Origin: Clostridia bacterium
Lineage (GTDB): Bacteria; Bacillota_A; Clostridia; Christensenellales; Aristaeellaceae
Direction of reading: 5' to 3'
DNA: 29,654 bases
NCBI GenBank assembly: GCA_017509065.1
Contig: JAFWQM010000076.1
Location: forward strand, 1-29,654
The notes beneath the pieces were generated by a model. It made no database searches, was not told the origin of the DNA, and saw only the letters and a list, made by a program, of their open reading frames with translations. Shown in pieces: positions 5,171 to 29,654 of this stretch (its first letter is position 1; every line of letters starts with the position of its first letter). The position numbers and the translations under genes are program-made.

Positions 5171-5560
5171 CGGCGGGGCGTTGCCCCGCACCCCACCAGG
5201 GGGGTGATCCCCCCTGGACCCGCAATAGCGGAAGCTACAAGTCAGGTGAAGCAGAATTGGTTCCCTCTGTTGCTTGAGAAAAACGAGCAAACAAACGCCG
5301 TTGTGCTTCTAGCCCGGCGTCTGAAAGACGCCAGTCCGGACGCGAAGCGTCCGGGGAAAGCCAGGGATAAATCACCAGTGGAAAGCTCGCTTTCCTCTGG
5401 GATTTTTCCAGGCTTTCTTGGGCCAGAAGCCTCTAACTTTCGTAACCCCAGCGCGGCAGGCGAAAGTTGTTTTCTCTGCCCAACGGGGTAATTTCGCCTA
5501 TTGAAGTCCAGAGGACGAAGTCCTTTGGTCAGGGGTTTGGGGGCGGAAAGCCCCCCCAAA
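5171..5560. repeat. 390-bp mirror-symmetric structured element, copy 1
   Basis: The element lies between spoIIIAB and spoIIIAC. Its ends mirror each other. On the left, a GC hairpin (GCGGGGC 5173-5179 with GCCCCGC 5183-5189) is followed by CCAGGGGGG (5196-5204) pairing with CCCCCCTGG (5209-5217). On the right, CCAGAGGAC (5508-5516) pairs with GTCCTTTGG (5520-5528), followed by a GGGGGC/GCCCCC hairpin. Inside are conserved spacers around AATAGCGGA (left) and TTTCGCCTATTG (right), and a cloverleaf core at 5306-5429. It ends 8 bp from the spoIIIAB stop. Copies 2 and 3 share the whole arrangement. No coding function is supported. Confidence 0.85.
5306..5429. other. Cloverleaf core of repeat copy 1
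   Basis: The outer stem is CTTCTAGCCC (5306-5315) with GGGCCAGAAG (5420-5429), with one mismatch. Inside are a GGCGTCTGAAAGACGCC hairpin, a CCGGACGCGAAGCGTCCGG hairpin, and a long arm in which GAAAGCC pairs with GGCTTTC and the tip CCAGTGGAAAGC pairs with GCTTTCCTCTGG. Total length is 124 nt. Confidence 0.75.
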
Positions 5561-5567
5561 GTATTCC

Positions 5568-6047
5568 TTAACATAACAATATGAACACCGCCGCTCCGCC
5601 GAGCCAGCCGAGGCTGGTATAAAGACGGGCGTTTTTGTCGAGCGCCTCGCGGGAGGCTTTGCGGTAAACAGTCCACTGGCTGCGGGCGTAGGCGAGAGCC
5701 TGGGCCTGCTCCTGGAGGGAGGGGGAAAAGAGGAGGGACAGGCAGTTTTGCAGCGTGTCCAGCTCCGGCGGGAGCAGCGCGTTTTCCCATGGAAGATCAG
5801 AAAGCAGCGCTTCCGTGGACGCGGCGGGCATAGCTTCCAGGCGTCGGCGCAGCTCCAGCAGCGCGGGCATGCCGCCCCGATGAAGCACCTCGGAGAGCGA
5901 CGCGGCGCTGTGAGTAATGGCAGCATCCATGCGCAGCAGAGCGTTTTCCCAGGCTTGCAGGGTTTCTTCACGCCGGTTCAGGCGGTTCGCCGCGCTCAAG
6001 CCCAGGGCGACGCAGGCCCCGGCCCCCAGTATTGCAAGCCCAATCAT
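5568..6047 (-). CDS. spoIIIAB: Stage III sporulation protein AB
   Basis: A 159-residue protein (B. subtilis about 171) with an N-terminal membrane helix (about 3-20), a long helical soluble region, and a second hydrophobic segment at the very C-terminus (LGWLGGAAVFILLC). This is the usual SpoIIIAB layout and resembles the GspF-like fold assigned to the family. It probably pairs with the SpoIIIAA ATPase as the motor platform of the channel. The ATG at 6047 overlaps the spoIIIAA stop as ATGA. The TAA stop at 5568-5570 lies 8 bp from the edge of a 390-bp repeat, and the last residues match a normal family end, so the repeat did not truncate the gene. Confidence 0.9.
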   Translation of the reverse strand: MIGLAILGAGACVALGLSAANRLNRREETLQAWENALLRMDAAITHSAASLSEVLHRGGMPALLELRRRLEAMPAASTEALLSDLPWENALLPPELDTLQNCLSLLFSPSLQEQAQALAYARSQWTVYRKASREALDKNARLYTSLGWLGGAAVFILLC

Positions 6048-6865
6048 GGTTTGATTTCCTCAATGACCGGCACTCGCCCCGGCGCGGTCAGGACGATCAG
6101 CCTGTCAAACACCCGCTCCCGGAACAGCGCGTCCATGCCCTGCCTGCGCTTCACATCCTGAATACCCGTTCCGTGGGCTGTGGCGAGGATTCTCACCCCG
6201 CATTTTGCCGCTTCCATCAGCGCCGCTGCGTCTTCCGGCCCGCCGATCTCGTCCGTGGCGACCATCTGCGGAGCCATGGCACGGATGAGCAGTGAAAGCG
6301 CCTTTGCCTTGTTCACGCCTGTGACCACATCGGTATTCTGCCTCACGTCCAATTGCGGCATCCCTTCTCTGCACCCGGCGATTTCTCCCCGCTCATCCGC
6401 CACGCCCACCTGCGTTCCGTCCAGGGAGAAAAGCCGGACCAGATCACGAAGCAAGGTCGTTTTTCCTGACCCCGGCGGGCCGACGATCAGAGCCGACGCA
6501 CCGCGCAGCAGCGGGAAAACGCCTTCGCCCACGCCCCTGATTTCATGGGCGATACGCACGCACAGGCTGGTGATTTCGGTGAATCCCTTCGCACCCATCA
6601 CCCCGCAAACGCCAAGCCGGTGCCCACCCGCGAGTGGCACGAAACCCTGGGAAAGCTGCTCCTGCCGCGCGGCCAGGGAATGATTCGTCAGCGCCTGTGC
6701 CGCCTGTAATACATCCTTCGGCGAAAGGACATAGCTGCCCCGCCATACATCTCCCGCCAGCGTAACCGCCGCGCTTTGCCCCGGACGCAGCCTCACTTCA
6801 CGCGCCTGCGCCCAGTCCACTTCATCCCAGCCCGGTTCCCCGGGCACGATCAAACGCCAGTCCAT
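6044..6865 (-). CDS. spoIIIAA: Stage III sporulation protein AA (secretion-type ATPase)
   Basis: SpoIIIAA is the cytoplasmic ATPase of the SpoIIIA complex, related to type II/IV secretion ATPases, and is essential for late sigma-G activity. From the ATG at 6865 it has 273 residues. It carries the conserved AREVRLRPGQ (21-30), Walker A GPPGSGKTT (129-137), the VADERGEI motif (155-162) and Walker B MVATDEIGG (201-209). The family norm is about 300 residues, and the chosen ATG has no ribosome-binding site. A good site (GGAGG near 6971-6975) lies before a GTG at about 6963-6965, but that frame (VAELAEPMDYSKKP...) ends at 6822, out of frame with the ATPase. The N-terminus is therefore uncertain; a frameshift is possible. 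It is the first gene of the operon, divergent from the kinase gene. Confidence 0.88.
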   Translation of the reverse strand: MDWRLIVPGEPGWDEVDWAQAREVRLRPGQSAAVTLAGDVWRGSYVLSPKDVLQAAQALTNHSLAARQEQLSQGFVPLAGGHRLGVCGVMGAKGFTEITSLCVRIAHEIRGVGEGVFPLLRGASALIVGPPGSGKTTLLRDLVRLFSLDGTQVGVADERGEIAGCREGMPQLDVRQNTDVVTGVNKAKALSLLIRAMAPQMVATDEIGGPEDAAALMEAAKCGVRILATAHGTGIQDVKRRQGMDALFRERVFDRLIVLTAPGRVPVIEEIKP

Positions 6866-7003
6866 GATACAGGGTATGAGCAGGCGCGGAAAAATATGAC
6901 AGTAAAACAGCGGACCCTGGCTCCGGCTTTTTCGAATAATCCATTGGTTCCGCCAGTTCCGCCACGGAAGTCCTCCGCGATTCTTCAAGGATTTTCTTTT
7001 TTC

Positions 7004-7032
7004 TTGAATTTGACAATTGCTTATGCTATCAT
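7004..7032 (+). promoter_or_regulatory. Putative sigma-A promoter for the sugar-phosphate kinase operon
   Basis: TTGAAT (7004-7009) and TATCAT (7027-7032) are 17 bp apart, about 45 bp upstream of the kinase start codon. An overlapping TTGACA at 7010-7015 has no -10 at correct distance. Confidence 0.5.
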
Positions 7033-7076
7033 AGCCATGAGGAAAAGATTTCACATCGTTCAGAAGAGGAAGAGAT

Positions 7077-8006
7077 ATGATCATTACCGTCACACTCACC
7101 CCGGCGCTGGATAAAACGGTGATCCTTCCCGGCTTCCGGGTGGATCAGGTCAACCGCATCCAAAGCCTTCGCCTGGACCCAGGCGGCAAAGGCATCAACG
7201 TATCCAAGGTGCTGCTCTCATTAGGCGCTGACAGCCTGGCTACCGGTATCCTGGGCGGGGGCACGGGCCGCTATATTGAAAACAGCCTGCGGGAAATGGG
7301 GATTGCCTCCGATTTCGTGTGGGTAAAAGAGGAGACCCGCACCAACCTGAAGGTAGTGGACCCGCAGGAGCATACCAACACCGACATCAACGAGCCGGGC
7401 ACGCCGGTGGCTCCCGAGGTCATCGAAGCCGTATACCGGAAAGTGGAAGCCGCCGCCAGCCCCGGCGATATTGTGGTGATGGCGGGCAAGGCCCCGTCGA
7501 GCGCGCCTGACACCGTCTTTGCCGATTGGATCACCCGGCTGCGCAGTCGGAGCGTGCAGACCTATCTGGATGCCGACGCCGGGCTGCTGATCGAGGGCGT
7601 AAAAGCTAAGCCCACCCTGATCAAGCCCAACGACGTGGAACTGAGCCGTTTGACCGGAAGGGAGTTTCACGGCGTCAGTGAAATGGTGCAGGCTGCCGGG
7701 CGGCTGGTACAGGACGGCATCGGAACGGTAGTGGTATCCCTGGGAAGCGACGGGGCGCTGTTTGTGACAGGGGATCAGGCGCTTCGGGGATACGGCCTGC
7801 GGGTGCCTGTGCAGAGCACCGTCGGCGCTGGGGACAGCATGATGGCTGCCATGGCCTACGGCGCGGCCAAAGGCATGGGTTTCCGGGACACCTGCGCCTT
7901 AGCTCTGGCGGTCAGCGCTGCGGCAGTGACCACCCCCGGTACCCAGCCCGCCGAAAAGCATGTGGTCGATGAACTGCTCAAGCAAGTTCAAATAGAAGAA
8001 ATCTGA
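7077..8006 (+). CDS. pfkB: 1-phosphofructokinase-type PfkB sugar kinase
   Basis: A 309-residue PfkB-family kinase, most like 1-phosphofructokinase (fructose 1-phosphate to fructose 1,6-bisphosphate) or tagatose-6-phosphate kinase. The start MIITVTLTPALDKTV is characteristic of that subgroup. The first PfkB signature GGKGIN is at 36-41, KPNDVEL at 183-189, and the second signature with the anion hole and catalytic base, STVGAGDS, at 247-254 (Asp253). The ATG at 7077 is preceded by a purine-rich AGAGGAAG. A dehydrogenase gene follows 27 bp downstream on the same strand, so the two probably form an operon. No PTS transporter gene, the usual partner of fruK, is present in the window. Choosing between fructose 1-phosphate, tagatose 6-phosphate and other ketose phosphates would need a phylogeny. 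Confidence 0.88.
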   Translation: MIITVTLTPALDKTVILPGFRVDQVNRIQSLRLDPGGKGINVSKVLLSLGADSLATGILGGGTGRYIENSLREMGIASDFVWVKEETRTNLKVVDPQEHTNTDINEPGTPVAPEVIEAVYRKVEAAASPGDIVVMAGKAPSSAPDTVFADWITRLRSRSVQTYLDADAGLLIEGVKAKPTLIKPNDVELSRLTGREFHGVSEMVQAAGRLVQDGIGTVVVSLGSDGALFVTGDQALRGYGLRVPVQSTVGAGDSMMAAMAYGAAKGMGFRDTCALALAVSAAAVTTPGTQPAEKHVVDELLKQVQIEEI

Positions 8007-8033
8007 TACTGCCTGTACAGAAAGGAGTCCCGT

Positions 8034-9296
8034 ATGAAGAGCCGCGCTGTGCGCCTCCATGGCGCCAATGATCTGCGCCTGATGGAATTTGAACTGCCCG
8101 AGATCAAGGAGGACGAGATCCTGGTCAAGGTCGTCTCAGACAGCATCTGCATGTCCACCTACAAATGCGCCGTGATGGGCACCAAGCATAAGCGCGTGCA
8201 TCCCGACGTGGCCGAGCATCCGGCCATCATGGGCCACGAGTTCGCGGGCGTGATCGAAAAAGTGGGAAAGAAATACGAAGGGCAGTTCTTCCCGGGCACA
8301 AAATTCACCCTGCAGCCCGCGCTGAACTACAAGGGCACCATGTGGAGCCCCGGCTACAGCTATCCTTATTTCGGCGGAGACTGCACCTACTGCATCATTC
8401 CCCAGGAAGTCATGGAGCTTGGGTGTTTTCTGGAGTACAAGGGCGAAGCCTTTTTTGAAGCTTCTTTGGCGGAGCCCTACAGCTGCAATATCGGCGCGGC
8501 GCATTCCGCCTTCCATACCCAGATGGGCGTGTACAAGCATGAGATGGGCATCCGCGAGGGCGGGAAGATGGCCATCCTGGCGGGCGCGGGGCCCATGGGC
8601 CTGGGCATGGTGGAATACATCATCCACTGCGACCGCCGCCCCGGCACGCTCATCGTGACCGACATTGATGAAAACCGTATAGAACGCGCCCGCCAGCTTT
8701 TTCCCAGGGAGCTCGTGGAAAAAACCGGCGTTCAGGTCGCCTTCGTCAATACGCGGGATATTGCCGACCCAGCTCAGTATCTCAAGGACTTGGTCGGGGG
8801 AGGTTACGACGATGTGTTCGCCTACGCCCCTGTGGAAAGCGTGGTGGAGCTGTCCTCCGCCATCCTGGGCAGGGACGGGTGCCTCAATTTCTTCGCTGGG
8901 CCCACCGATAACAAATTCTCCGCCCGCATCAATTTTTATGACGTACATTACAACAGCGCGCATGTGATCGGCAGCACCGGCGGCAATACCGCGGACATGG
9001 TCGAGTCGCTGGAGCTCACCGCCGCCGGGCGCATCCGTCCCGCCGTGATGGTGACTCACGTGGGCGGCTTGGACTGTGTTGCCGAAACCACGTTGAACCT
9101 GCCCAAGATCCCCGGCGGGAAAAAACTGATCTATACCCATATCAACATGCCGCTGACCGCCATCGACGATTTTGCCGAAAAGGGAAAGGAAGACAAGCGC
9201 TTCGCGGCTTTGGCGGAAATCGTGGGACGCAATCAGGGCTTGTGGTGCCTGGAAGCGGAACAGTATCTGCTGTCGCACTGGGAGAACATAGAATAA
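8034..9296 (+). CDS. YggP/SorE-like zinc-type dehydrogenase
   Basis: A 420-residue medium-chain dehydrogenase/reductase. The N-terminal catalytic domain keeps a metal-ligand cysteine (Cys39 in ICMST) and GHE (67-69). A Rossmann domain with AGAGPMGLGMVEY lies near 183-195. Long segments (QPALNYKG, GYSYPYFGGDCTY, CLNFFAGPTDNKF, VHYNSAHVIG, LNLPKIPGGKKLIY, PLTAIDDFAEKGK) resemble what I recall of E. coli YggP and L-sorbose-1-phosphate reductase (SorE) proteins, which are longer than ordinary alcohol dehydrogenases. The likely substrate is a phosphorylated ketose or polyol. The four-cysteine structural-zinc cluster of classical enzymes is not evident. GAAAGGAG precedes the ATG at 8034. It follows the pfkB kinase by 27 bp, which suits a sugar-phosphate role. 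Substrate is inferred, not shown. Confidence 0.8.
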   Translation: MKSRAVRLHGANDLRLMEFELPEIKEDEILVKVVSDSICMSTYKCAVMGTKHKRVHPDVAEHPAIMGHEFAGVIEKVGKKYEGQFFPGTKFTLQPALNYKGTMWSPGYSYPYFGGDCTYCIIPQEVMELGCFLEYKGEAFFEASLAEPYSCNIGAAHSAFHTQMGVYKHEMGIREGGKMAILAGAGPMGLGMVEYIIHCDRRPGTLIVTDIDENRIERARQLFPRELVEKTGVQVAFVNTRDIADPAQYLKDLVGGGYDDVFAYAPVESVVELSSAILGRDGCLNFFAGPTDNKFSARINFYDVHYNSAHVIGSTGGNTADMVESLELTAAGRIRPAVMVTHVGGLDCVAETTLNLPKIPGGKKLIYTHINMPLTAIDDFAEKGKEDKRFAALAEIVGRNQGLWCLEAEQYLLSHWENIE

Positions 9297-9328
9297 TGCA
9301 ATCGGCTGTCAATCTGGTTGACTAAACC

Positions 9329-9342
9329 GTTAAGCGCTTTTT
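9329..9342 (+). promoter_or_regulatory. Possible catabolite-response (cre-like) or other palindromic site
   Basis: GTTAAGCGCTTTTT contains the palindrome AAGCGCTT and agrees with a degenerate cre consensus at about 11 of 14 positions. It sits upstream of the lacI-family promoter. The following T-run could instead make it part of a weak terminator of the dehydrogenase gene. Confidence 0.25.
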
Positions 9343-9363
9343 TGTATTTTTTTATTATCTCTC

Positions 9364-9392
9364 TTGACAGATCATACATATTGTGGTATGTT
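9364..9392 (+). promoter_or_regulatory. Strong sigma-A promoter of the regulator/ABC operon
   Basis: TTGACA (9364-9369, perfect) and TATGTT (9387-9392) are separated by 17 bp. Transcription would start near 9399, just before the operator palindrome. It is the only clear promoter seen before the regulator and binding-protein genes, which are 13 bp apart. Confidence 0.7.
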
Positions 9393-9401
9393 TTCATTGC
9401 T

Positions 9402-9416
9402 GGAACCGGTACCGGT
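9402..9416 (+). promoter_or_regulatory. Putative LacI-family operator
   Basis: ACCGGTACCGGT (9405-9416) is a perfect 12-bp palindrome, two ACCGGT units side by side, each with the central CpG typical of LacI-family operators. It starts about 6 bp after the expected transcription start and 37 bp before the regulator's ATG, a classic place for autorepression. Confidence 0.55.
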
Positions 9417-9452
9417 AGCGATGCCGGAAAATAGTCAGGGGGGGCGGAGCCG

Positions 9453-10478
9453 ATGACCACCATACGCGACGTGGCAGATTATCTGGGCGTATCGGTCTCC
9501 ACCGTTTCGCGCTACCTGAACAACCATCCTGATCTGAACGAAGAAACGCGCCGGAAAATCGAAAAAGCCATTCATGAGCTGGACTATGTGCCCAGCTCCG
9601 CAGCGCGGAACGTATCCCGGCTGTCGACGCGCACCATCGGACTGACCATTCCCGACATTCAGGATTCCTATTTTTCCGATAACGCTTTCGGCGTGGAACA
9701 ATATTTGCAGGAAAACAGATATTCGCTGGTGTATGGCAGCATCAGCCGCAGCCCCAAGCGGATGTTGGATTTTGTGCAGCACGCGCGGGAAATGCGCTTT
9801 GACGGCTTGATCATCACCCCCGAGGAATGGTCGGCGGAACTGCTGACGCTGCTGAAAAAGACGCGCATCCCCATTGTGGCGCTTCGCCGCCGTCCGCCGG
9901 AGGACAGCGGCATCCCTTACGTGGATGCCGACCACTACGCTGGCGCAAAGCAGATGGTCGATCATCTTGCCGGCCTTGGCCACCGCAATATCTGCCACAT
10001 CGTGCTGAACACGGATATCGGGCGGGAACGCCTGCGCGGGTATATCGACGCCATGAATGCCTATGGACTTGAACCTCGGACCATCACGATTCCCGAGCTT
10101 CCCGCCAACCGGATCATGGACGGCATTGCCTATGGCAGAGCCGCCGCGGAACAGCTGATGCGGGACGACCCAGCCACCACCGCCGTCTTCGCCTCCAGCG
10201 ACCCCATCGGCCTGGGCGTCATGGAATACGCCCGCGCCAAAGGCATCCGCGTGCCGGAGGACCTGTCCGTCTGCGGCACCGGCGATCTGGATATTGCTTC
10301 TCTTTCGTGGTTTGAAATGACCACGGTTGCTTTTGATCGGTATGAGCTCGGGCGAAAAGCCGCCGAGCTGCTGTTGAACATGGTGAGAAAGGAGGAGAGC
10401 CGTCCCAAATCCGTTCTGTTCGATACCCATCTGGTGCTGAGGAAAAGCACCGCGCACCCTGAAGACTCAATAAAATAA
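9453..10478 (+). CDS. LacI-family transcriptional regulator
   Basis: A 341-residue LacI/GalR-type regulator. The N-terminal helix-turn-helix and hinge (TTIRDVADYLGVSVSTVSRY, residues 2-21, then LDYVPSSAARNVSRL) are followed by a periplasmic-binding-protein-like sensor domain with RTIGLTIPDIQDSYF, FDGLIITP, AVFASSDPIGLGVMEYA and the C-terminal motif GIRVPEDLSVCGTGD. A GGCGGAG site precedes the ATG. A binding-protein gene follows 13 bp after its stop, so the regulator is probably co-transcribed with the transporter and represses both through the palindrome at 9405-9416. The effector is probably a sugar or sugar phosphate handled by the neighbouring genes; this is inference from context. Confidence 0.9.
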   Translation: MTTIRDVADYLGVSVSTVSRYLNNHPDLNEETRRKIEKAIHELDYVPSSAARNVSRLSTRTIGLTIPDIQDSYFSDNAFGVEQYLQENRYSLVYGSISRSPKRMLDFVQHAREMRFDGLIITPEEWSAELLTLLKKTRIPIVALRRRPPEDSGIPYVDADHYAGAKQMVDHLAGLGHRNICHIVLNTDIGRERLRGYIDAMNAYGLEPRTITIPELPANRIMDGIAYGRAAAEQLMRDDPATTAVFASSDPIGLGVMEYARAKGIRVPEDLSVCGTGDLDIASLSWFEMTTVAFDRYELGRKAAELLLNMVRKEESRPKSVLFDTHLVLRKSTAHPEDSIK

Positions 10479-10491
10479 GGAGGTTTTCCCA

Positions 10492-11517
10492 ATGAAACGC
10501 ATGCTTGCTCTGCTGCTCACCCTGTGCCTGCTGGCCTCGCTGCCCGTGTTCGCGACGGCCGAACAGGTCAAGTCCGTCTCCATCTACACCTGCTATGTTG
10601 AGAACGAAGCCCTGCAGATGTTTGAACAGTTCACCAAGGACACCGGCATCAAGGTCAACTACGTCCGCCTCGGCGCAGGTGAGATCGTGACCCGTCTGGA
10701 AGCGGAAGCCCAGAATCCCCAGGCCTCCATCTTCATGGGCGGTTCCGTGGACACCCACACCAGCGCCATGAACAAGGGCCTGCTGGATCACTACGTCTCC
10801 CCCAAGCTGGACGTGGTGGATGAACGCTGGAAGGACCCCAACGAAGTCTGGACGCCCGTTTCCATGATCGTGACCGCTTTCGCCAGCAACACCGAATACC
10901 TGGAGGAGAAGGGCATTCCCGCGCCCACCAGCTGGGCTGAGCTGCTGAATCCCGAGCTCAAGGGGGACGTCTGCATGGCGCACCCCGGCACCTCCGGCGC
11001 GGCCTACACCGCCTTCTCCGGCATGCTGCAGACCTTCGGCGTGGAAGAGGGCTTTGAGTACATGAAGAAGCTGGACGCCAATATCGCCCAGTACACCAAA
11101 GCCGGCGCCGCTCCCTACCGCATGGCGGGCCTCGGCGAAATCGGCGTTGCCATCGGCTATGACCTCGACGCCCAGGCAACCATCCTGGAAGGCTATCCCC
11201 TGGTCATCACCTATCCCAGCGAAGGCACCGGCTACGAAGTGACTTGCGTGTCCATGGTCAAGGGCGGCCCTGCCAACGAAGTGGAAGCGGCCCACGCCTT
11301 CATCGACTGGATGCTGTCCGATACCTGCCAGAAGATGGCCACCGAGCAGTTCTACCGCTATCCCATCAGCAAGACCGTGGAGCTCAACCCCGCCATGATC
11401 CCCATGGATCAGCTGAACCTCATCGACTATGACTTCATCTGGTCCGGCGACAACAAGGTGGACCTGGTGGAGCGCTTCGAGCGCGAAGTCCGCACCCGTG
11501 ACAACGTCATCAAGTAA
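10492..11517 (+). CDS. AfuA/FbpA-type ABC transporter substrate-binding protein
   Basis: A 341-residue secreted solute-binding protein with a clear signal peptide (MKRMLALLLTLCLLASLPVF, cleavage after ATA near residue 23). The fold is that of the iron/thiamine/phosphonate/sugar-phosphate group (SVSIYTCYVENEALQMFEQF, PTSWAELLNPELKG, GTSGAAYTAF, a C-terminal VEAAHAFIDWMLS). There is no lipobox cysteine at the cleavage site, although binding proteins of single-membrane bacteria are usually lipidated. The gene follows lacI by 13 bp with AAGGAGG before the ATG. The permease and ATPase genes follow after a 484-bp gap holding a repeat. AfuA of Actinobacillus binds hexose phosphates, and the phosphatase and sugar-kinase neighbours favour that type of ligand here over iron, but the ligand is unproven. 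Confidence 0.83.
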   Translation: MKRMLALLLTLCLLASLPVFATAEQVKSVSIYTCYVENEALQMFEQFTKDTGIKVNYVRLGAGEIVTRLEAEAQNPQASIFMGGSVDTHTSAMNKGLLDHYVSPKLDVVDERWKDPNEVWTPVSMIVTAFASNTEYLEEKGIPAPTSWAELLNPELKGDVCMAHPGTSGAAYTAFSGMLQTFGVEEGFEYMKKLDANIAQYTKAGAAPYRMAGLGEIGVAIGYDLDAQATILEGYPLVITYPSEGTGYEVTCVSMVKGGPANEVEAAHAFIDWMLSDTCQKMATEQFYRYPISKTVELNPAMIPMDQLNLIDYDFIWSGDNKVDLVERFEREVRTRDNVIK

Positions 11518-11526
11518 TCCGGTTTT

Positions 11527-11573
11527 AGCGTTCATTCCATTGACACAATGAGTTAGCCAAAAAAGGGAACGCT
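11527..11573 (+). terminator. Hairpin after the binding-protein gene
   Basis: AGCGTTC (11527-11533) pairs with GAACGCT (11567-11573), enclosing a CATTG/CAATG stem (11538-11550). With no T-run, it may be a 3' stabilising hairpin giving more binding-protein mRNA than permease mRNA, a common pattern in ABC operons, instead of a full terminator. Confidence 0.35.
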
Positions 11574-11960
11574 GTGGCCTCCGCGGCCCCAGACCCCGCG
11601 GCAAGGGATTTCATCCCTTGCATCCCAATAGGCGAAATGACTTGATTGAATAAAAAAGGCAACATTCGCCTGTCGCGCCGAGGTTACGAAAGAGAGTGGC
11701 TTCTGGCCCAGGAAAGCCGGGAAAATTCCAGGGGAAAGCAAGCTTTCCCCTGAGGATTATTCCCAGGCTTTCCCCGGACGCGAAGCGTCCGGGTAGGCGG
11801 CTTCGCCGCCGGGCCAGAAGCATGAGGTTGTGAGTTTGTCTGTTTTTCTCAAGTATCAGCGGGAATGAAGTCGATACGTCCCGACATGAAGTTTCCGCTA
11901 TCGGAGTCCAGAGGACGAAGTCCTTTGGTTCAGGGGTTTAGGGGGCTGAAGAAGCCCCCT
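11573..11960. repeat. 390-bp mirror-symmetric structured element, copy 2 (inverted)
   Basis: The element fills the gap between the binding-protein and permease genes in the opposite orientation to copies 1 and 3. The left end has a GC hairpin and AAGGGAT (11603-11609) pairing with ATCCCTT (11613-11619), then CAATAGGCGAAAT. The right end has TCCGCTAT, then CCAGAGGAC with GTCCTTTGG, and a final GGGGGC/GCCCCC hairpin. The cloverleaf core is at 11700-11820. The permease ribosome-binding site (GGGAGG) begins about 28 bp after the element. Length matches copy 1. Confidence 0.85.
11700..11820. other. Cloverleaf core of repeat copy 2
   Basis: CTTCTGGCCC (11700-11709) pairs perfectly with GGGCCAGAAG (11811-11820). 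The inner arms are CAGGGGAAAGC with GCTTTCCCCTG, a CCGGACGCGAAGCGTCCGG hairpin and a GGCGGCTTCGCCGCC hairpin. Arm order is reversed relative to copies 1 and 3, as expected for an inverted copy. Length 121 nt. Confidence 0.75.
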
Positions 11961-12001
11961 GCCTCGTCCTTCGTTACTGATTCAAAAGGGAGGCGGTTTT
12001 C

Positions 12002-13693
12002 TTGTCCAACCCGGCTGTCAAAAGGATGCGACAGCAGCGAAGAAAAGAGTTTGCCATGCTGCTCAGACAGCCTGGTCTGCTGGCCTGCATCATCGCCATC
12101 CTGATCATTCTGGTGATCTTCTGCATCTGGCCGGTGCTCAGGCTTTTGTGGGCCACGGTCACCAACGCCGAGGGCCGTCTGGACCTGAGCAATGTCCAGC
12201 ACATCATGACCTCGACGAATTTCTTTACCTCGCTGGGCAATTCGCTGATGCTCGGCGTGACGGTGGCGGTGATCGCCACCATCATCGGCTACGTGTTTGC
12301 CTATGCGGTCACGCGCACGGACATGAAGGGCAAACGCTTTTTCCATTTTATGGCGATGCTGCCCATTCTTTCGCCGCCCTTTGTGATTTCACTGGCCATG
12401 ATCCTGCTGTTCGGGCGCAGCGGCGTGATCACCAAAACGCTCCTGCACATCCGCAATCATAACGTGTACGGCTTTAACAGCCTGGTGATCGTGCAGACGC
12501 TGGCGCTGTTCCCGCTGGCGTACCTGAACCTGAAGGGCGTGCTGGAGAGCATCGACGGATCGGTGGAGGACGCGTCGCGCTCCCTGGGCGCGAGCCGCAT
12601 GAAGGTGTTCACCTCCGTGACGCTGCCGCTGAGCATTCCCGGCGTTTTCAGTGCGCTGCTGATCGTGTTCGCCAAATCCATCAGCGATTTTGGCAACCCC
12701 CAGGTGCTGGCGGGCAACTTCTCGGTGCTGTCCGTGGACGCGTATATGCAGATTACCGGCCTGTACGACCTGAAAACCGGCGCGTTCATGGCGCTGAGTA
12801 TCCTGCTGCCTGCCATGCTGGCCTTCTTCATCCAGAAATACTGGGTCGCCCGAAAGTCTTTCGTGACCATTACGGGCAAACCCGTGGGCAATGTCCAGAA
12901 GATCCGCGACCGCCATATCGTGGTGCCGCTGTTCATCTTCTGCCTGCTGATCACGGTAGTCGTGCTGATGCTGTACGGCACGGTGGTGTGGATTTCACTG
13001 GTCAAGACCTGGGGCGTGGATATGAGCCTGTCCTTCAAGAATTATGAGTTCGTGTTCAAGCGCGGCATGAGCGCCATGCAGGATACGCTGCTCCTGGCCC
13101 TGATCGCGACGCCTATTACCGCGCTCTTGGGCCTGGTGATCAGCTTCCTGCTGGTGCGCAAGCGCTTTTTCGCCAAGAAGCTGATGGAGGTTGCCTCCAT
13201 GATCCCCTTCGCGGTTCCCGGCATCGCTCTGGGCATCGGCTACATCCTGTCGTTCAACACGCCGCCGATCCTGCTCACGGGCACGGCGGTGATCATCGTG
13301 GCGGCGCTGGTGTTCCGCACGCTTTCTGTCGGCGTTGAAGCGGGCAGCAACAGCCTGCGCGCCGTGGACGCCAGCATCGAGGAAGCGAGCGCCGTGCTGG
13401 GGGCCAATAACCTGACCACCTTCACCCGCATATCGCTGCCGCTGATGCGGTCCGCGCTTTTCTCCGGGCTGCTGAACGCCTTCGTGCGTTCCATGACCTC
13501 CGTCAGCGCGGTCATTTTCCTGGTCAGCGTCAACTGGAACCTGCTGACGGTGTCCATCATGTCCGAAATCGAAGGAAGCCGCCTGGGCGTAGCGTCCGCG
13601 TACTGCGTGGTTTTGATGATCATCGTGGTGATCGCGATGCTGATCCTGGAAGTGGCGGTCAACGGCGAAGGCCCGAGGAGGAAAAGATCATGA
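12002..13693 (+). CDS. AfuB/FbpB-type ABC transporter permease (fused two-domain)
   Basis: A 563-residue polytopic membrane protein containing two BinPDT permease domains in one chain, as in AfuB, FbpB and ThiP. About 12 hydrophobic helices are visible. Each half has an EAA-type loop that docks the ATPase: EDASRSLGASRMKVFTSVTLP near 188-208 and EEASAVLGANNLTTFTRISLP near 460-480. The start is a TTG at 12002 with GGGAGG about 8 bp upstream; the basic N-terminus (VKRMRQQRRK) precedes the first helix. Its stop overlaps the ATPase start (ATGA). The repeat just upstream means it is expressed either by read-through from lacI or from a promoter inside the repeat, which I cannot identify. Confidence 0.9.
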   Translation: MSNPAVKRMRQQRRKEFAMLLRQPGLLACIIAILIILVIFCIWPVLRLLWATVTNAEGRLDLSNVQHIMTSTNFFTSLGNSLMLGVTVAVIATIIGYVFAYAVTRTDMKGKRFFHFMAMLPILSPPFVISLAMILLFGRSGVITKTLLHIRNHNVYGFNSLVIVQTLALFPLAYLNLKGVLESIDGSVEDASRSLGASRMKVFTSVTLPLSIPGVFSALLIVFAKSISDFGNPQVLAGNFSVLSVDAYMQITGLYDLKTGAFMALSILLPAMLAFFIQKYWVARKSFVTITGKPVGNVQKIRDRHIVVPLFIFCLLITVVVLMLYGTVVWISLVKTWGVDMSLSFKNYEFVFKRGMSAMQDTLLLALIATPITALLGLVISFLLVRKRFFAKKLMEVASMIPFAVPGIALGIGYILSFNTPPILLTGTAVIIVAALVFRTLSVGVEAGSNSLRAVDASIEEASAVLGANNLTTFTRISLPLMRSALFSGLLNAFVRSMTSVSAVIFLVSVNWNLLTVSIMSEIEGSRLGVASAYCVVLMIIVVIAMLILEVAVNGEGPRRKRS

Positions 13694-20190: not shown

Positions 20191-21408
<1,218 letters not shown>

Positions 21409-21440: not shown

Positions 21441-21443
21441 CAG

Positions 21444-21471
21444 ATTATACATCCATTTTTCGATTTGTCAA
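21444..21471 (-). promoter_or_regulatory. Near-consensus sigma-A promoter of argG
   Basis: On the minus strand, TTGACA (21471-21466) and TATAAT (21449-21444), both perfect, are separated by 16 bp, about 36 bp upstream of the argG start. Confidence 0.8.
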
Positions 21472-21554
21472 GAGATTATTTGAAAAAATTTTTGATTTTC
21501 ATTCATATATGATTATATTATGTATATTTTTTCATTCCAATCTGCTTTTCATCC

Positions 21555-23179: not shown

Positions 23180-23182
23180 GGC

Positions 23183-23551: not shown

Positions 23552-23556
23552 GGGGG

Positions 23557-26500
23557 TCACGGCTTTTCCACCACCTTCATGTCTTGTTCGTCCAGGTCGA
23601 AGAGCAGGGAGGTCCAGGCGATATGGGCATCCCGCACCCACAGGTTCCGAGGGCAGAGCAGGGTGATCCCCTCCTCCGGCAGATTGATGTACACCGGCAC
23701 GTCCCCCGGCATTTTTGCCAGCAGAGACTGGATATGGGGTATCTGATCCCGGCGCATGCGCAGGTATAGCTTGGTTTTCGCTTCTTTGGCGATCTGCGCG
23801 TCCGTGCGGGGGTCAATTGGCTTGGAAATGGCCTCGCCCAAAGGCTCCACGATATCGGCCAATAATTTGGTATCCTCGTCATCCCGGACGGACAGCCTGC
23901 CCGTCACCAGCACCGCCTGATCGGCTGCTAAAGCACGTCCGTAGCGCTCAAAAATCTTGGGGAACATGAGGCATTCCACCTGCCCGGTCTGATCCTCTAA
24001 GGTGAAAAAGCCCATGAGCCCGCCCTTGCGGGTGGCCTTGCTGTGCGCTTCCACGATGATCCCGCCCATGACCACCCGCCGGCCGTCCTCGGATAAACCT
24101 CTGTCCTCGCGTTCTTCCAGTTCGGCCAGGTACGCCGTGTTCACAGGCAGGTTTTTCAGCTGTTCCGCGTACTCGTCCAGGGGATGGGCGCTGCAATACA
24201 CGCCCGTCATTTCCTTTTCCTGGGAAAGCAGCTCTTTCAGCGGATATTCGGGAATGGGCGGGAAGGTCTCCTGTGTGCGCAGGTCCTCGGCGGGCTGGCC
24301 GAAATCGAACAGTGAAATCTGGCCGGTCACGTTCTGCTTGCGCTGGTTCAGCTGGGAATCCATGGCGGATTCGTACACCGCTACGCACTGGGCGCGCGCC
24401 GCGCCGAGGCCGTCAAAACAGCCTGCCTTGATGAGGCTTTCCACGGCCCGCTTGTTCACGTCCTCCCCGGCAACCCGGCGGCAGAAATCGAAAATGTCCA
24501 GGTAGGGGCCGTGGTTGAACCGCTCGCGGACGATGGATTCCACCGCCTTTTCGCCCACGTTCTTCACCCCGCCCATGCCGAAGCGGATGCCCTGTTTCCC
24601 GTCCGGGGTTTCGTCCACGGTAAAGGGGCCGAAGGAAGAATTGACCCGGGGCGGGAGAATAGGGATACCCTTCTGGCGGCAGTAATAAATGTAGGCGGCA
24701 ATTTTGGCGCTGTTGCCGGTGACGGAATTCATCAGCGCGGCCATGAATTCGGCGGGGTAATGGTATTTGAGGTAGCCCGTCTGCAAGGCGACCACCGCAT
24801 AGCAGGCGGCGTGGGGCTTGTTGAAGGCATAAGACGCAAAGGAAGTCATTTCGTCAAAAATGGACTCCGCCACTTCGGCGGACACGCCCTTCGATACAGC
24901 GCCGGGAATATGGTCTTCCTCGGAGCCGTAGACGAAATTCTTGCGCTCCTTGGCCATCACGTCTTTTTTCTTCTTCGCCATGGCGCGGCGCACCAGGTCG
25001 CTGCGGCCGTAGGAATAGCCCGCCAGGTCGCGCACGATCTGCATCACCTGCTCCTGATACACCATGCAGCCGTAGGTCACGTCCAGGATGGGGGCCAGGA
25101 GGGGCGTCTTGTACTGCACCGTTTCCGGGTGCTGCTTGCCCCGGATGTAGCGGGGAATGGACTCCATGGGGCCGGGGCGGTACAGGGAAATGGCGGCGAT
25201 GATATCTTCAAAGCTGCGGGGGCGCATGTTGGTAAGGAACGTGCGCATCCCGCCGCCTTCCAGCTGGAACACCCCGTCGGTGTCCCCCGCGCAGATCATG
25301 TCAAACACGCCCGGATCGTCCATGGGGATGTCCTCGGGCTTTAAATGAATCCCGCGCTTTTCGATCATATCCAGGGTGTCCCGGATGACGGTCAGCGTGC
25401 GCAGGCCCAGAAAGTCCATTTTGAGCAAGCCCAGCTTTTCAATGATACCCATGGGGTACTGGGTCGTAATTACATCATCATTTTTTTGCAACGGCACGTA
25501 ATGGGTGGCGGGCTCGCGGGTGATGAGCACGCCCGCGGCGTGGGTGGAAGCGTGGCGGGGCATGCCCTCCAGCGTCAGGCCCGTGTCGATCAGGCGCTTC
25601 ACCTTCGCGTCTGATTCGTACATGTCCCGCAGTTCCTTGTTCTGGTCCATGGCCTTTTCCAGGGTCATGTCCAGTGCCATGGGCACGGCCTTCGCCACCG
25701 CGTCCACCTCGGCGTAAGGATAGCCCAGCACCCGGCCCACGTCCCGCAGCACGCCCCGGGCGGCCATGGTTCCGAAAGTGATGATCTGGCACACGTGGTC
25801 GTGGCCGTACTTCCGCGCCACGTAATCAATGACCTCCTGCCGCCGCTCGTAGCAGAAGTCCACGTCGATATCCGGCATGGACACCCGCTCGGGGTTCAGG
25901 AAGCGCTCGAACAGCAATTGATATTTCAGGGGGTCGAGCATGGTGATGTTCAGGCAGTACGCCACGATGCTGCCCGCGCCGCTGCCACGGCCCGGGCCAA
26001 CCATGATGCCGTTGTCCTTGGCGTACTTGATGAAGTCCCAGACAATGAGGAAGTAATCCACATAGCCCATCCGCGTGATGACGGACAGCTCGTATTCCAG
26101 CCGTTCCTTGGCCGCCTGATCGTCGGGCTGATAGCGTTCCGCGAACCCTTCTTCGCACAGCCTCCGCAGCATGGAATCCGCCGTTTCTCCCTCCGGCACG
26201 TCGTAGCGGGGGAGATGAACGGTGTGGAAGTCAAAGTCCACCTGACAGCGCTTGGCGATTTCCTCCGTCCGCTGAATGGCCTCCTCCTGCTCAGGGAACA
26301 GCTGCTTCATTTCCTCTTCGGACTTAACAAACAATTCCTTCGTGTGCTGCCGCATCCGGTTGTCGTCCTCTAAGGTCTTTCCCATCTGGATGCACATCAG
26401 CACTTCCTGGGCGTCCGCGTCCTTGCGGGTCAAGTAGTGGCAGTCGTTGGTCACGACCAGCGGAATGCCGGTGCGTTTACTCATTTCGATCAGCCTTGGC

Positions 26501-27051
26501 CGTACTGTCTTTTCCTCATCAAGGCCGTGATCCATGAGTTCGATATAATAATGGTCGAGGCCGAACAGGTCGGTCATTTTCCTGATATATTCTTCTGCGT
26601 CGTTGTAGCGCTCGTCCAGCAGCAGCTTGGGCAAATCGCCGGAGATGCAGGCGGACAGGGCGATCAGGCCCTCATGGTGCTTTCGGATGAAGTCATAGTC
26701 CATGCGCGGGCGGTAATAGAATCCCCGGGTGAACGCCTCGCTCACCAGCGTCATCAGGTTCCGGTAGCCCGTTTCGTTTTCGCACAGCAGGATCAGATGG
26801 CTGTATTCGCGGGAGAGGGTGCGCTTGTCCTCCATGTCCGGGCAGACGTACACCTCGCATCCGATCACGGGATGGATGCCGGCGTCTTTGCACGCCTGAT
26901 AAAACTCCACCGCGCCGTACAGCACGCCGTGGTCGGTGATGGCGCAGGCGTCCATGCCCAGCTCTTTCACGCGCTGAACCAGCTTCTTGATCCGGCACGC
27001 CCCGTCCAGCAGGCTGTATTCCGTGTGCAGATGCAGATGCGCAAACGCCAT
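23557..27051 (-). CDS. dnaE: DNA polymerase III alpha subunit, DnaE1 type
   Basis: A 1164-residue replicative polymerase subunit. It has an N-terminal PHP domain (HLHLHTEYSLLDGA at about 5-18), the palm with catalytic aspartates in PDIDVDF (about residues 392-398), fingers and thumb with typical segments (GPGRGSGAGS, YQEQVMQI, HAACYAVVALQTGYLK), a helix-hairpin-helix region, and a C-terminal OB fold (GGIIVEAHSKATRKGG onward). It lacks the inserted exonuclease of PolC. I start at the ATG at 27051, since GGAGG is 7 bp upstream; an in-frame GTG at 27057 abuts that site. It is the first gene of an apparent operon with the RsbW-like, sigma and kinase genes. Confidence 0.96.
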   Translation of the reverse strand: MAFAHLHLHTEYSLLDGACRIKKLVQRVKELGMDACAITDHGVLYGAVEFYQACKDAGIHPVIGCEVYVCPDMEDKRTLSREYSHLILLCENETGYRNLMTLVSEAFTRGFYYRPRMDYDFIRKHHEGLIALSACISGDLPKLLLDERYNDAEEYIRKMTDLFGLDHYYIELMDHGLDEEKTVRPRLIEMSKRTGIPLVVTNDCHYLTRKDADAQEVLMCIQMGKTLEDDNRMRQHTKELFVKSEEEMKQLFPEQEEAIQRTEEIAKRCQVDFDFHTVHLPRYDVPEGETADSMLRRLCEEGFAERYQPDDQAAKERLEYELSVITRMGYVDYFLIVWDFIKYAKDNGIMVGPGRGSGAGSIVAYCLNITMLDPLKYQLLFERFLNPERVSMPDIDVDFCYERRQEVIDYVARKYGHDHVCQIITFGTMAARGVLRDVGRVLGYPYAEVDAVAKAVPMALDMTLEKAMDQNKELRDMYESDAKVKRLIDTGLTLEGMPRHASTHAAGVLITREPATHYVPLQKNDDVITTQYPMGIIEKLGLLKMDFLGLRTLTVIRDTLDMIEKRGIHLKPEDIPMDDPGVFDMICAGDTDGVFQLEGGGMRTFLTNMRPRSFEDIIAAISLYRPGPMESIPRYIRGKQHPETVQYKTPLLAPILDVTYGCMVYQEQVMQIVRDLAGYSYGRSDLVRRAMAKKKKDVMAKERKNFVYGSEEDHIPGAVSKGVSAEVAESIFDEMTSFASYAFNKPHAACYAVVALQTGYLKYHYPAEFMAALMNSVTGNSAKIAAYIYYCRQKGIPILPPRVNSSFGPFTVDETPDGKQGIRFGMGGVKNVGEKAVESIVRERFNHGPYLDIFDFCRRVAGEDVNKRAVESLIKAGCFDGLGAARAQCVAVYESAMDSQLNQRKQNVTGQISLFDFGQPAEDLRTQETFPPIPEYPLKELLSQEKEMTGVYCSAHPLDEYAEQLKNLPVNTAYLAELEEREDRGLSEDGRRVVMGGIIVEAHSKATRKGGLMGFFTLEDQTGQVECLMFPKIFERYGRALAADQAVLVTGRLSVRDDEDTKLLADIVEPLGEAISKPIDPRTDAQIAKEAKTKLYLRMRRDQIPHIQSLLAKMPGDVPVYINLPEEGITLLCPRNLWVRDAHIAWTSLLFDLDEQDMKVVEKP

Positions 27052-27078
27052 GGCCACCCCTCCTTTTTTGAACCTATA

Positions 27079-27129
27079 TTTTCACATTTATCATTATAGC
27101 GCAAACGAAACGGAATGTAAATGTGAAAA
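27079..27129. promoter_or_regulatory. 12-bp perfect inverted repeat spanning the dnaE promoter
   Basis: TTTTCACATTTA (27079-27090) and TAAATGTGAAAA (27118-27129) are perfect inverted copies 27 bp apart. One arm overlaps the -35 box and the other the expected transcription start of dnaE. This resembles a pair of half-sites, or two copies of one operator, for an unknown repressor. Confidence 0.55.
27093..27121 (-). promoter_or_regulatory. Sigma-A promoter of dnaE
   Basis: On the minus strand, TTTACA (27121-27116) and a perfect TATAAT (27098-27093) are 17 bp apart, about 42 bp upstream of the ATG. Confidence 0.75.
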
Positions 27130-27136
27130 GTGATAC

Positions 27137-27183
27137 GCAAAAAACTGCCTCGGGTCAGCTGTTTTCTGACTTCCGAGACAGTT
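27137..27183 (-). terminator. Rho-independent terminator of the AraC-family gene
   Basis: On the minus strand, AACTGTCTCGG pairs with CCGAGGCAGTT (one mismatch) around an inner GTCAG/CTGAC stem, followed by a run of T. It begins 6 bp after the araC-family stop and insulates dnaE. Confidence 0.85.
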
Positions 27184-27188
27184 ATATT

Positions 27189-27953
27189 TTATTCTTTCTT
27201 CGTGCTGACCGCCCAATGCTTTCGGTAGTGCGTTTTCCTGTATGCCGTGGGCGTCTGGCCGGTATACTTGCGGAAGAGCTGAGAGAAGTGGCTGTCGGAG
27301 GAAAAGCAGAGGTATTCGGCAATATCCAGGCAGGAAAAATCTGTGTATTCCAGCAGGGCTTTCGCGGTTTCGACGCGTTTCCTGCGAACGTATTCCGACA
27401 CCGCAACGCCCGTTTCCTTCATGAACAGTACGGAGACGTAGGACGCGGACAGTTCCAGTTCTTCCGCCAGACTCTTCACGGTGATGGGCTGCTGCAGATG
27501 GTGATCGATATAGTCCATGCTGCGGCGCACCTGCTGGGAATACACATCCTGCCGCAGGATGGCCTGCATGCGCAGGGTATAATCCCGGAACATGGCGTCG
27601 TGGAGGTCATAGATCTCCTGGACTGTTTTGCATTTGTCCGCCTGGCGGATATATACGTCGCTCAGGTTAAACGCGGTTTCCACCGGCATCCCGCCCTCGA
27701 TGCAGAAGCGGCAGGCCAAGGTGATGGAAGCGACGAACAGATATTGGTAATTCCTCAGCGGATCGTCGGAAATGGAGCCGGTGGCCGGCCCCTCGAACAT
27801 CTCTTTGCCGACGGATATGGCTTTCATGTTCCCCTGGCGGATGTATTCGTATTGGCGCAGGTCTTCTTCATAGGTATGGTGCCGAAAATTCGTTTCCCGG
27901 TTTTCAAGGGCGAGCCGCTCCAGCGCTTCCGCGATTTTCCGGTTCACCGCCAT
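27189..27953 (-). CDS. AraC-family transcriptional regulator
   Basis: A 254-residue regulator. The C-terminal third is a typical AraC double helix-turn-helix: MDYIDHHLQQPITVKSLAEE, LSASYVSVLFMKETGVAVSE, YVRRKRVETAKALLEYTDF, LDIAEYLCFSSDSHFSQLFR and KYTGQTPTAYR. The N-terminal part is helical and contains no cupin-like sugar-binding signature that I can recognise; it reads like a sensor domain also found before AraC domains in clostridia, rich in Tyr and charged residues. The start is the ATG at 27953, where GGGAGG lies 7 bp upstream; the in-frame ATG at 27959 is adjacent to that site. It stands alone between a repeat and a terminator. Targets are unknown. Confidence 0.88.
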   Translation of the reverse strand: MAVNRKIAEALERLALENRETNFRHHTYEEDLRQYEYIRQGNMKAISVGKEMFEGPATGSISDDPLRNYQYLFVASITLACRFCIEGGMPVETAFNLSDVYIRQADKCKTVQEIYDLHDAMFRDYTLRMQAILRQDVYSQQVRRSMDYIDHHLQQPITVKSLAEELELSASYVSVLFMKETGVAVSEYVRRKRVETAKALLEYTDFSCLDIAEYLCFSSDSHFSQLFRKYTGQTPTAYRKTHYRKHWAVSTKKE

Positions 27954-28020
27954 GGGCATGCCTCCCTTTTGCAGTACCTGTATACATGGACGCTTTAAAT
28001 CAGAAGGAGAGAACAGAATT

Positions 28021-28103
28021 CAGAGTACAGAGTACAGATGATATAGTCAATGCGCTGCGGAGTCCGAAGTGTAAAACTATATAAATCTGTACTCTGCACT
28101 CTG
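28021..28103. repeat. Inverted-repeat element with 7-nt tandem arms (copy 2)
   Basis: CAGAGTACAGAGTACAGAT (28021-28039) pairs with the segment at 28085-28103 with one mismatch in 19. The arms are tandem CAGAGTA 7-mers. The interior of 45 bp includes TGCGCTGCGGAGTCC, which weakly resembles the interior of the element at 2330-2422 read on the other strand. It lies 30 bp after the prfA stop. Confidence 0.7.
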
Positions 28104-28133
28104 TACTCTTCTTATTGTTGATAATAAAAATCA

Positions 28134-29195
28134 TCACATGTTCAGCACCCGGAGCTTCTCGGCCTGCTCCTTCATGGTGAGGGCGTCGATGATCTCGTCG
28201 AGATCGCCGTCCAGGATGGCGTCAATTTTATAGAGCGTCAGGTCAGCCCGGTGGTCGGTGACGCGGCCTTGGGGAAAATTATAAGTGCGGATACGCTCGT
28301 TGCGTTCGCCGCTGCCCACCTGGGCTTTGCGGTTCTGCGCGTAAGCGGCGTCCTTTTCCGCGCGGTAGAGATCATACAGCCTGGACGCCAGCACCTTCAT
28401 GGCTTTTTCCTTGTTTTTCAACTGGCTCTTTTCATCCTGGCAGGTGACCACCAGGCCGGAGGGCATATGCGTGATGCGCACGGCGGAGTCCGTACGGTTG
28501 ATGTACTGCCCGCCGTGGCCGGAGGCTCGGTAGGTGTCGATGCGGATGTCCTCGGATTTGATTTCCACGTCTACGTCTTCCGCCTCGGGCAGCACGGCCA
28601 CCGTGGCGGTGGAGGTGTGGATGCGCCCGCCCGCCTCCGTTACCGGTACTCGCTGGATGCGGTGCACCCCGGACTCGAACTTCATCCGGGAAAACGCGCC
28701 GACGCCGTTCAGGGTGAACACCGCTTCCTTGACGCCCTTGAGTTCCGTGGTGGAAATATCCACCGGCTCGAACTGGAAGCCTTTGCGCTCGGCATAGCGC
28801 TGATACATGCGCAGCAGCAGCGCTGCGAACAGCGCCGCTTCATCCCCACCCGCGCCGGGACGAATCTCCATCACCACCGAACGGTCATCGTTCGGATCGT
28901 GAGGGATCAGAAACAGCCGCAGCTTATTTCGTTCTTCTTCCTCTCGGGGGAGCAGGTCTTTTAATTCTTCTTCCGCCATTTCCGAAAGGTCGGGGTCTTC
29001 ACGCATTTCCTTTGCCTGCCTGATCCGCTCCAGCATCTGTTTATATTCCCGCCAGGCGTTTACGGCAGGCTCCAGCTGGCGCATTTCTTTCAGCATCGCC
29101 TGCCACTTGGGCACGTCGGCGATGATTTCCGGCTGGGCCGTAGCGACGCTCAGCTCCTCCAGGCGGCCTTCCATGGCTTCAAACTGCGCTTCCAT
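28134..29195 (-). CDS. prfA: Peptide chain release factor 1
   Basis: RF1 ends translation at UAA and UAG codons. The 353-residue protein has the N-terminal helical domain, the RF1-type codon-recognition tripeptide PVT (about 183-185, in [13 protein letters not shown]), and the catalytic GGQ (228-230) in [18 protein letters not shown]. In most RF1 proteins this reads GAGGQHVN; here His replaces Ala before GGQ and Tyr replaces His after it. The C-terminal part ([19 protein letters not shown]) is normal. The start is the ATG at 29195, with GGGAGA upstream; further upstream in-frame residues do not resemble the family. prmC, the methyltransferase gene often next to prfA, is not seen in the window. 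Confidence 0.95.
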
Positions 29196-29229
29196 GCTTC
29201 TCTCCCTTGATCGACAAATGCCTTCCGGC

Positions 29230-29257
29230 AAGATAATGTGTGATTTTTTTCTTCCAA
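29230..29257 (-). promoter_or_regulatory. Putative promoter of prfA
   Basis: On the minus strand, TTGGAA (29257-29252) and TATCTT (29235-29230) are 16 bp apart, about 35 bp upstream of the ATG. Confidence 0.4.
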
Positions 29258-29290
29258 ACTATTAACAGTCTTGTTGCGGAGGGTAATGAT

Positions 29291-29654
29291 GGGGCGAGGG
29301 CCTGTGCGGCCCTCGTGCACCTGCACCAAAGGTCTTCGACCTCTGGACTCCAATAGCGGATATTGCTTGCCATGATAAATGTGCCTGGTTCCCGCTGATG
29401 CAAAAAAGAACGCGGAAGTCTGGCTTGTTGCCGTGGTGCTTCTGGCCCGGCGGCGAAGCCGCCAGCCCGGATGCTTTGCATCCGGGGAAAGCCAGGGAAT
29501 AATCCGTAGGAGAAAGTGAACTTTCCCCTACGGATTTTCCCAGGATTTCTTGGGCCAGAAGCCCTCAAACCTTCCGTAATCCCAGCGCAGCAGGCGGAAC
29601 CTGGTTGCTTTTCACAACAAAGTTATTTCGCCAGTTGTGGGTCCAGGGTCCTCA
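29291..29654. repeat. 390-bp mirror-symmetric structured element, copy 3 (cut by window end)
   Basis: Same orientation as copy 1. The left end has a GGGCGAGGGCC/GGCCCTCG hairpin, then CCAAAGGTC with GACCTCTGG and CAATAGCGGA. The core is at 29439-29561. The right side has CCCAGCGCAGCAGGCGGAA and TTTCGCC, then GGGTCCAGGG as the beginning of the outer hairpin, where the window stops. It sits just upstream of prfA, beyond its putative promoter. Confidence 0.82.
29439..29561. other. Cloverleaf core of repeat copy 3
   Basis: CTTCTGGCCC (29439-29448) pairs with GGGCCAGAAG (29552-29561). The arms are GGCGGCGAAGCCGCC, CCGGATGCTTTGCATCCGG, and a long arm tipped by CCGTAGGAGAAAGT with ACTTTCCCCTACGG. 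Length 123 nt. Confidence 0.75.

Follow-up and report, generated by a model that had tools for sequence, protein, structure and literature searches.

The question raised by this locus is what kind of element its three cloverleaf-forming sequences are, and whether the form that is conserved is that of an RNA or of DNA. The window, which is the entire 29,654-nucleotide stretch analysed, comes from the chromosome of a Clostridia bacterium that sporulates, and carries spoIIIA genes, dnaE, feoB and a prfB-like release factor gene. Its kinship to the genomes compared is deduced from the prfB-like protein, which is 93–94% identical to that of six genomes, including the draft genome G001, and from the flanks of copy 2, both 93% identical to those in locus L078. 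A 291-residue open reading frame at 27123-27998 (+ strand) has no Pfam match. Reading of the sequence at the positions given in the original prediction confirmed all three cores, the second being inverted, and the arm sequences attributed to them were found as described. The claim that one closing stem is shared by the three holds for copies 2 and 3 and fails for copy 1 (from 5306), which reads CTTCTAGCCC and contains one A.C pair. The features are listed below, where scores in bits refer to covariance model R1, built from 46 cores.

5170..5559, + strand: copy 1, whole nested palindrome, from the sequence and from conservation across 111 left and 103 right flanks; outer limits judged by eye
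5173..5217, + strand: copy 1, 5' outer tandem hairpins GCGGGGC-GTT-GCCCCGC and CCAGGGGGG-TGAT-CCCCCCTGG, from sequence and fold
5306..5429, + strand: copy 1, core with closing stem and three arms (four-way junction); 122.9 bits
5508..5560, + strand: copy 1, 3' outer tandem hairpins CCAGAGGAC-GAA-GTCCTTTGG and TTGGGGGC..GCCCCCCCAA, from sequence and fold
11567..11967, - strand: copy 2, whole nested palindrome; limits by eye
11700..11820, - strand: copy 2, core, from sequence, fold and pattern; 128.7 bits
29287..29654, + strand: copy 3, palindrome cut by the end of the window, from the sequence
29439..29561, + strand: copy 3, core, from sequence, fold and pattern; 136.4 bits

The pattern CTTCTRGCCCGGN{86,116}GGGCCAGAAG matched the window three times, exactly at the three cores, and had no match in 100 dinucleotide shuffles. 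When folded as RNA, cores 1, 2 and 3 display energies of -74.9, -85.3 and -81.8 kcal/mol, with z-scores of -9.1, -10.1 and -10.7, respectively. Each core constitutes the middle of a nested palindrome of ~390–400 bp, in which tandem outer hairpins and inner flanking hairpins surround the core; these additional hairpins on either side had been missed in the original prediction. Copy 1 is located within the spoIIIA operon (- strand), between spoIIIAB and the next gene, copy 2 between genes for a solute-binding protein (10492-11517) and a permease (12002-13693), and copy 3 upstream of the prfB-like gene (28134-29231, - strand), where an outer TTAACAG inverted-repeat layer begins near 29263.

The sequences had initially been described as an unrecognised family, and this description stands: no Rfam (release 15) family reached its gathering score in the window or in 20 chosen loci, and permissive thresholds returned for copy 1 sub-threshold matches only, the best being to a microRNA family, which scored 28.8 bits where the cut-off is 98. 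A literature search in CC-licensed PMC text identified no paper on the cloverleaf repeat family. The search of related genomes that had been proposed with the prediction showed the cores to be members of a large, dispersed family. Scanning genome contigs with the pattern returned at least 120 stretches, mostly from ruminant Clostridia assemblies among the matches listed. Three of the hits, in a Spirochaetaceae (L057), a Thermoplasmata (L064) and a Chloroflexi (L091) contig, were rejected as chance pattern matches, being unalignable and scoring at most 26.6 bits with R1, and are left out of the alignment (A1). The closing stem is invariant in R1 because the pattern used to collect cores demanded it. 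Of 29 genomes from the genus to which G001 belongs (rumen and gut Clostridia), 28 match R1, G282 only weakly (E 4.6e-5); so do 8 of 120 genomes sampled at the family level and 3 of 151 sampled at the order level, two of these three being weak. In G001, 784,178 bases contain 30 separate places with the element, of which four are truncated at contig ends and some are weak matches; the highest match counts, of at least 147 and at least 119, include opposite-strand shadows and are not usable as copy numbers. Many G001 contigs start or stop within the repeat (L243, L249, L250, L251, L257, L276 and others), and since assemblies break at the repeat, copy numbers are underestimates. Plasmids and phages gave no blastn match to window positions 5150-5600. 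Among viral contigs, a true copy (L415; 131.4 bits) was identified on a 4.3-kb contig, and a match of 20.7 bits (L416) was discarded as unconvincing.

The core, 121–130 nt in length, presents a fixed geometry across the family. A total of 267 non-overlapping places was reduced to 234 cores by dropping 33 that were outside 110–135 nt or identical in sequence. Exactly three arms lie inside the closing stem in 231 of the 234 distinct cores, a count biased towards this shape as the copies were collected with a structure model. Arm 4 measures 61–63 nt in 183 of 231 cores; in the main group most linkers follow 0/2/0/2, and in the diverged group they are short. The 68 cores of diverged lineages have a median identity of 68% to the third core of the window, and their closing stems, quite different in sequence, retain pairing. 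The 234-core set includes at least one non-member, L234, which is 53% identical and lacks the three-arm fold; the next lowest core, at 56% identity, retains the four-armed fold. In one genome (G189; L189-L208), 16 of 20 elements display two different cores arranged back to back and divergent.

Comparison of orthologous sites revealed that the element is present or absent between species at the same gap. Over the spoIIIAB region, compared at 28 loci from 27 genomes, an element placed as in the window occurs only in L342 (G010). Of 13 such loci read, seven display a short gap without the element after spoIIIAB (G009, G006, G287, G005, G012, G275 and G004), five carry other sequence and one is L342 itself. 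The insertion of copy 3 is common to the window, L363 (G001) and L365 (G008), and copy 2 has an orthologue in L078 with flanks 93% identical on both sides. The sharing of copy 3 by three genomes and the absence of the element from all but one of the spoIIIAB loci thus indicate that some copies are old and others are not. Locus L369 was dropped as an orthologue of the prfB-like-site copy, having the opposite orientation relative to that gene. At one site shared by L047, L184 and L240 the flanks are 85–90% identical and the cores, of differing subtypes, only 62–74%, which counts against the reading preferred below. At L269 (2353-2457), both TTAACAG ends and joined outer-hairpin remnants are present without a core, and this looks like an internally deleted copy.

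Double changes that keep pairs intact had been taken to point to selection on the folded form. The changes themselves are real. Counted on a FastTree tree as replacements of one Watson-Crick pair by another, they occurred independently 207 times at 51 pairs (211 with another tie-breaking seed), compared with 8–54 when partners were slid by 1–3 positions and 17 with random partners. A stricter null, our own tree test rather than R-scape, in which the changes of each column are re-placed on branches, retained 1 of 51 structure pairs at E<0.05 when all column pairs were considered, and 11 of 51 when scaled to the structure pairs alone. Neighbouring double changes display a modest clustering on the same branch (18 versus 9.6, sd 2.9, with a maximum of 20 in 1000 shuffles). 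On deep branches (at least five copies) paired double changes make up about half of the changes away from Watson-Crick pairs, versus about 28% on leaf branches. As evidence of selection, double changes alone do not suffice, since template switching generates them without selection.

The pairs that are neither Watson-Crick nor doubly changed bear on the choice between RNA and DNA. In the rigid stems of the cores, G.T and A.C cells number 73 and 63, the events on the tree are 123 from Watson-Crick to G.T and 133 to A.C, and on branches leading to at least two copies the G.T:A.C events are 29:24. In the same genus, RNase P RNA (23 genomes) presents a G.T:A.C ratio of 170:3 cells and 21:3 events, which differs from that of the cores (Fisher p 2e-23 for cells and 2e-4 for events). 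A control with 16 tRNAs gave 11:3, leaning as RNase P does; a cruder tRNA count with misplaced stems gave 14:7. A selected RNA is expected to resemble RNase P, and the changes in the cores are thus not RNA-like. A G.T pair has only a small advantage over A.C in DNA, so that a single DNA strand stays compatible with equal counts and may be the folded form, as may RNA made from both strands. The alternative initially posed, RNA or extruded DNA, is thereby narrowed, with RNA disfavoured and extruded DNA remaining.

The loops provide a further signature. Among 176 parsed cores, the arm-3 loop is TTT in 59, AAA in 51, GAA in 17 and TTC in 10, with states intermediate between TTT and AAA in 7 of 176. 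Tip loops are GA in 52, TC in 47, TT in 52 and AA in 17, with no AG and one CT. At one orthologous insertion the arm-3 loop reads AAA in L371 and TTT in L370. Loops in both orientations, together with a loop flipped at an orthologous site, constitute the footprint of hairpin template switching, a process that, in the sections of the two reports considered here, homogenises arms and inverts spacers (PMC8604942) and both creates and maintains hairpins (PMC8794818). Flipping is not the sole mode of loop change, as of the 74 arm-3 loop changes on the tree only 9 turn the loop into its exact reverse complement and 25 are single steps, and none of 58 arm-2 loop changes, in columns that align poorly, is an exact inversion. 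Nine comparisons of copies at shared insertion sites contained 21 paired double changes, alongside 9 G.T and 12 A.C states; these comparisons share copies and represent five sites, not nine independent cases. They include the window with L100 and L365, and L371 with L370 and L368, and leave out L052-L262 (partly broken) as well as L047-L184, L047-L240 and L184-L240 (differing core subtypes).

We consider it probable, although far from certain, that each core lies at the heart of a MITE-class mobile DNA element, non-autonomous and non-coding, which is conserved in the form of a DNA four-way junction. The element is ~390–430 bp long (up to ~540 bp including outer inverted repeats in some relatives), intergenic and present in dozens of copies per genome within one Clostridia genus. 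This reading takes in what was observed, namely the dispersal and copy number, the empty orthologous gap, the constant geometry, the paired changes, the equal G.T and A.C counts and the two-way loops, and on it the family is best described as new, made up of mobile palindromes that resemble MITEs and keep a DNA four-way junction at their centre. The form that matters would be DNA, extruded or single-stranded during replication. By template switching, a nascent strand would copy one arm from the other, producing most paired changes in one step and also flipping loops, while a trans-acting enzyme would recognise and move folded copies, such that arm number, order and length are retained. Template switching explains the joint changes of pairs but does not alone account for the fixed geometry, for which we infer selection on mobility. 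Counting against the reading as a whole are the lack of a mobilising enzyme with matching ends among the families searched, the near-silence of the strict covariation null, the modest clustering on branches, the loop changes that are not flips, the bias of the geometry count and the dissimilar cores at the site of L047, L184 and L240. A more specific proposal, which we put forward tentatively and regard as possible rather than probable, is that the recognition signal is shape and not sequence: template switching would mutate an extruded Holliday-like four-way DNA junction of fixed arm lengths, and a junction-reading transposase or resolvase would select it. On this view the shape persists genus-wide while nearly every stem gets rewritten.

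The most serious alternative is neutral upkeep, in which the palindrome spread once, template switching re-perfects its hairpins and the cloverleaf is unselected. Both loop orientations, the parity of G.T and A.C and the symmetric changes found also in copies resident at one site are in line with it, as are the homogenising of arms, spacer inversion and hairpin upkeep known for template switching from the parts of PMC8604942 and PMC8794818 considered. Against this, three arms in the same order, an arm 4 of mostly 61–63 nt and short linkers persist at 56–68% core identity, and hairpin copying by itself leaves arm number, linkers and arm length unfixed; the larger share of paired double changes on deep branches than on leaves also argues against it. 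Neutral upkeep alone is judged unlikely.

A structured non-coding or cis-regulatory RNA, selected as RNA, would account for the high stability of the fold (z-scores near -9 to -11) and for the abundance of paired double changes. We regard it as very unlikely: G.T is no commoner than A.C on either strand, in contrast with RNase P and with the tRNA control that sides with it, loops are found in both orientations, Rfam holds no match, and the orientation relative to neighbouring genes is unbiased (22 sense and 29 antisense copies in co-directional gaps).

The gene surroundings bear on whether the element is of use to the host, whether by terminating transcription in both directions or by acting between genes as a topological roadblock. 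The 89 scorable copies lie between 32 convergent, 51 co-directional and 6 divergent gene pairs, compared with 88, 392 and 81, respectively, among 561 background pairs, which represents an excess of convergent (Fisher p 2e-5) and a deficit of divergent pairs (p 0.046); a further 60 copies were excluded because a contig end was too close. These counts come from a crude gene caller in which open reading frames overlapping a core were excluded by design; without this exclusion, 61 of 90 cores overlap some predicted frame, and such frames are read as spurious, lying within a dispersed GC-rich palindrome. The convergent excess and the divergent deficit speak for such a role. However, 51 of the 89 copies are co-directional, one inside the spoIIIA operon, the gene calling limits the comparison, and promoters are avoided by selfish elements too. 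A host-useful element is held to be very unlikely.

The mobilising enzyme was sought through the ends of the element. Inverted arms corresponding to the terminal inverted repeats of MITEs are present in the window copies. Outer layers (TTAACAG, TACTNTTTCTC) occur on part of the copies in some relatives, and in some the element is bounded by inverted repeats TACTNTTTCTC..TCTAAA common to shorter repeat families. Eight pairs of TACT ends were inspected by eye: six have the same TTA or TAA on both sides (L117, L279, L039, L074, L332 and L314, as opposed to L317 and L243), and only three of the eight enclose a cloverleaf (L039, L074 and L243), which may there be nested in another MITE. In L314, a single long stretch between TACT ends holds a 287-residue open reading frame, not called a transposase. 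DDE_Tnp_1 genes were found in 11 of 17 genomes, and none of the 20 loci read carries TACT ends; weak TTAACAG-like matches occur in L284 and L289, and a cloverleaf copy in L288. An IS5-type transposase element in G001 (L285) was rejected as parent, its ends being different. Searches covering the DDE_Tnp_1 and Y1 families thus identified no parent transposon with the same ends. Movement of a REP/BIME-type palindrome by a single-strand (Y1, RAYT) transposase, which would fit the high-copy intergenic palindromes with short loops and the divergent double cores of G189 (16 of 20 loci) that recall REP dimers, is the least plausible alternative, as Y1_Tnp is found in just 10 of 29 genomes of the genus and is absent from the draft genomes G001, G008 and G010, and the core of 121–130 nt compares with 20–40 bp for REPs in the part of PMC3733652 considered.

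Other repeats accompany the element. Short MITE-like families of ~130–300 bp with TACTNTTTCTCNTCTAAA ends, mostly TTA- or TAA-flanked (L117, L246, L247, L273, L279, L332 and others), are represented by 52 end matches in G001; most of the other genomes searched contain few such matches or none. A second repeat, with the motif GAGATCARCCGAAACGAGCAAT, lies within the outer hairpins of the cloverleaf element (L005, L021, L022, L023, L044, L053, L055, L072, L081, L084, L092 and L097); 12 of its 22 counted copies are at most 300 nt from a core, and one window copy is located near 278 (+ strand). Palindromes seem to be nested within palindromes.

Similar to MITEs, the cloverleaf element is short, non-coding, dispersed and intergenic, with terminal inverted repeats. 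It differs from them in its nested multi-hairpin build, in a central four-way junction that is constant across the genus and in that no parent transposon was found for it among the DDE_Tnp_1 and Y1 families searched. With REP, BIME and REPIN sequences and their RAYT enzymes, as far as the portions of PMC3733652 and PMC2817692 at hand describe them, it shares high-copy extragenic palindromes, short loops and dimers, but it is far longer and four-armed, and the Y1 transposase is absent from its high-copy genomes. Template-switch hairpins, reported from rRNA, microRNA genes and yeast coding genes in the parts of PMC8794818 and PMC8604942 considered, are similar in that one copying event explains both paired changes and inversion of the loop or spacer. 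In contrast, the cloverleaf hairpins are linked in a fixed multi-arm shape, and loop inversion, described as very rare in rRNA in the same part of PMC8794818, is matched here by two common orientations. The hairpin-associated small inversions of chloroplast DNA, in the limited accounts considered, likewise involve loops that flip between hairpin arms; they are single hairpins, whereas the cloverleaf is a dispersed mobile family.

A functional RNA is ordinarily proved by covariation. The cloverleaf family combines strong covariation with failure of the wobble test, G.T being no commoner than A.C, and constitutes a natural counter-example to that proof as well as a ready benchmark for separating RNA from DNA palindromes. 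Its dispersed copies preserve a natural history of template switching at bacterial hairpins, and if the shape is indeed selected, the family would represent a mobile element recognised through the geometry of its DNA.
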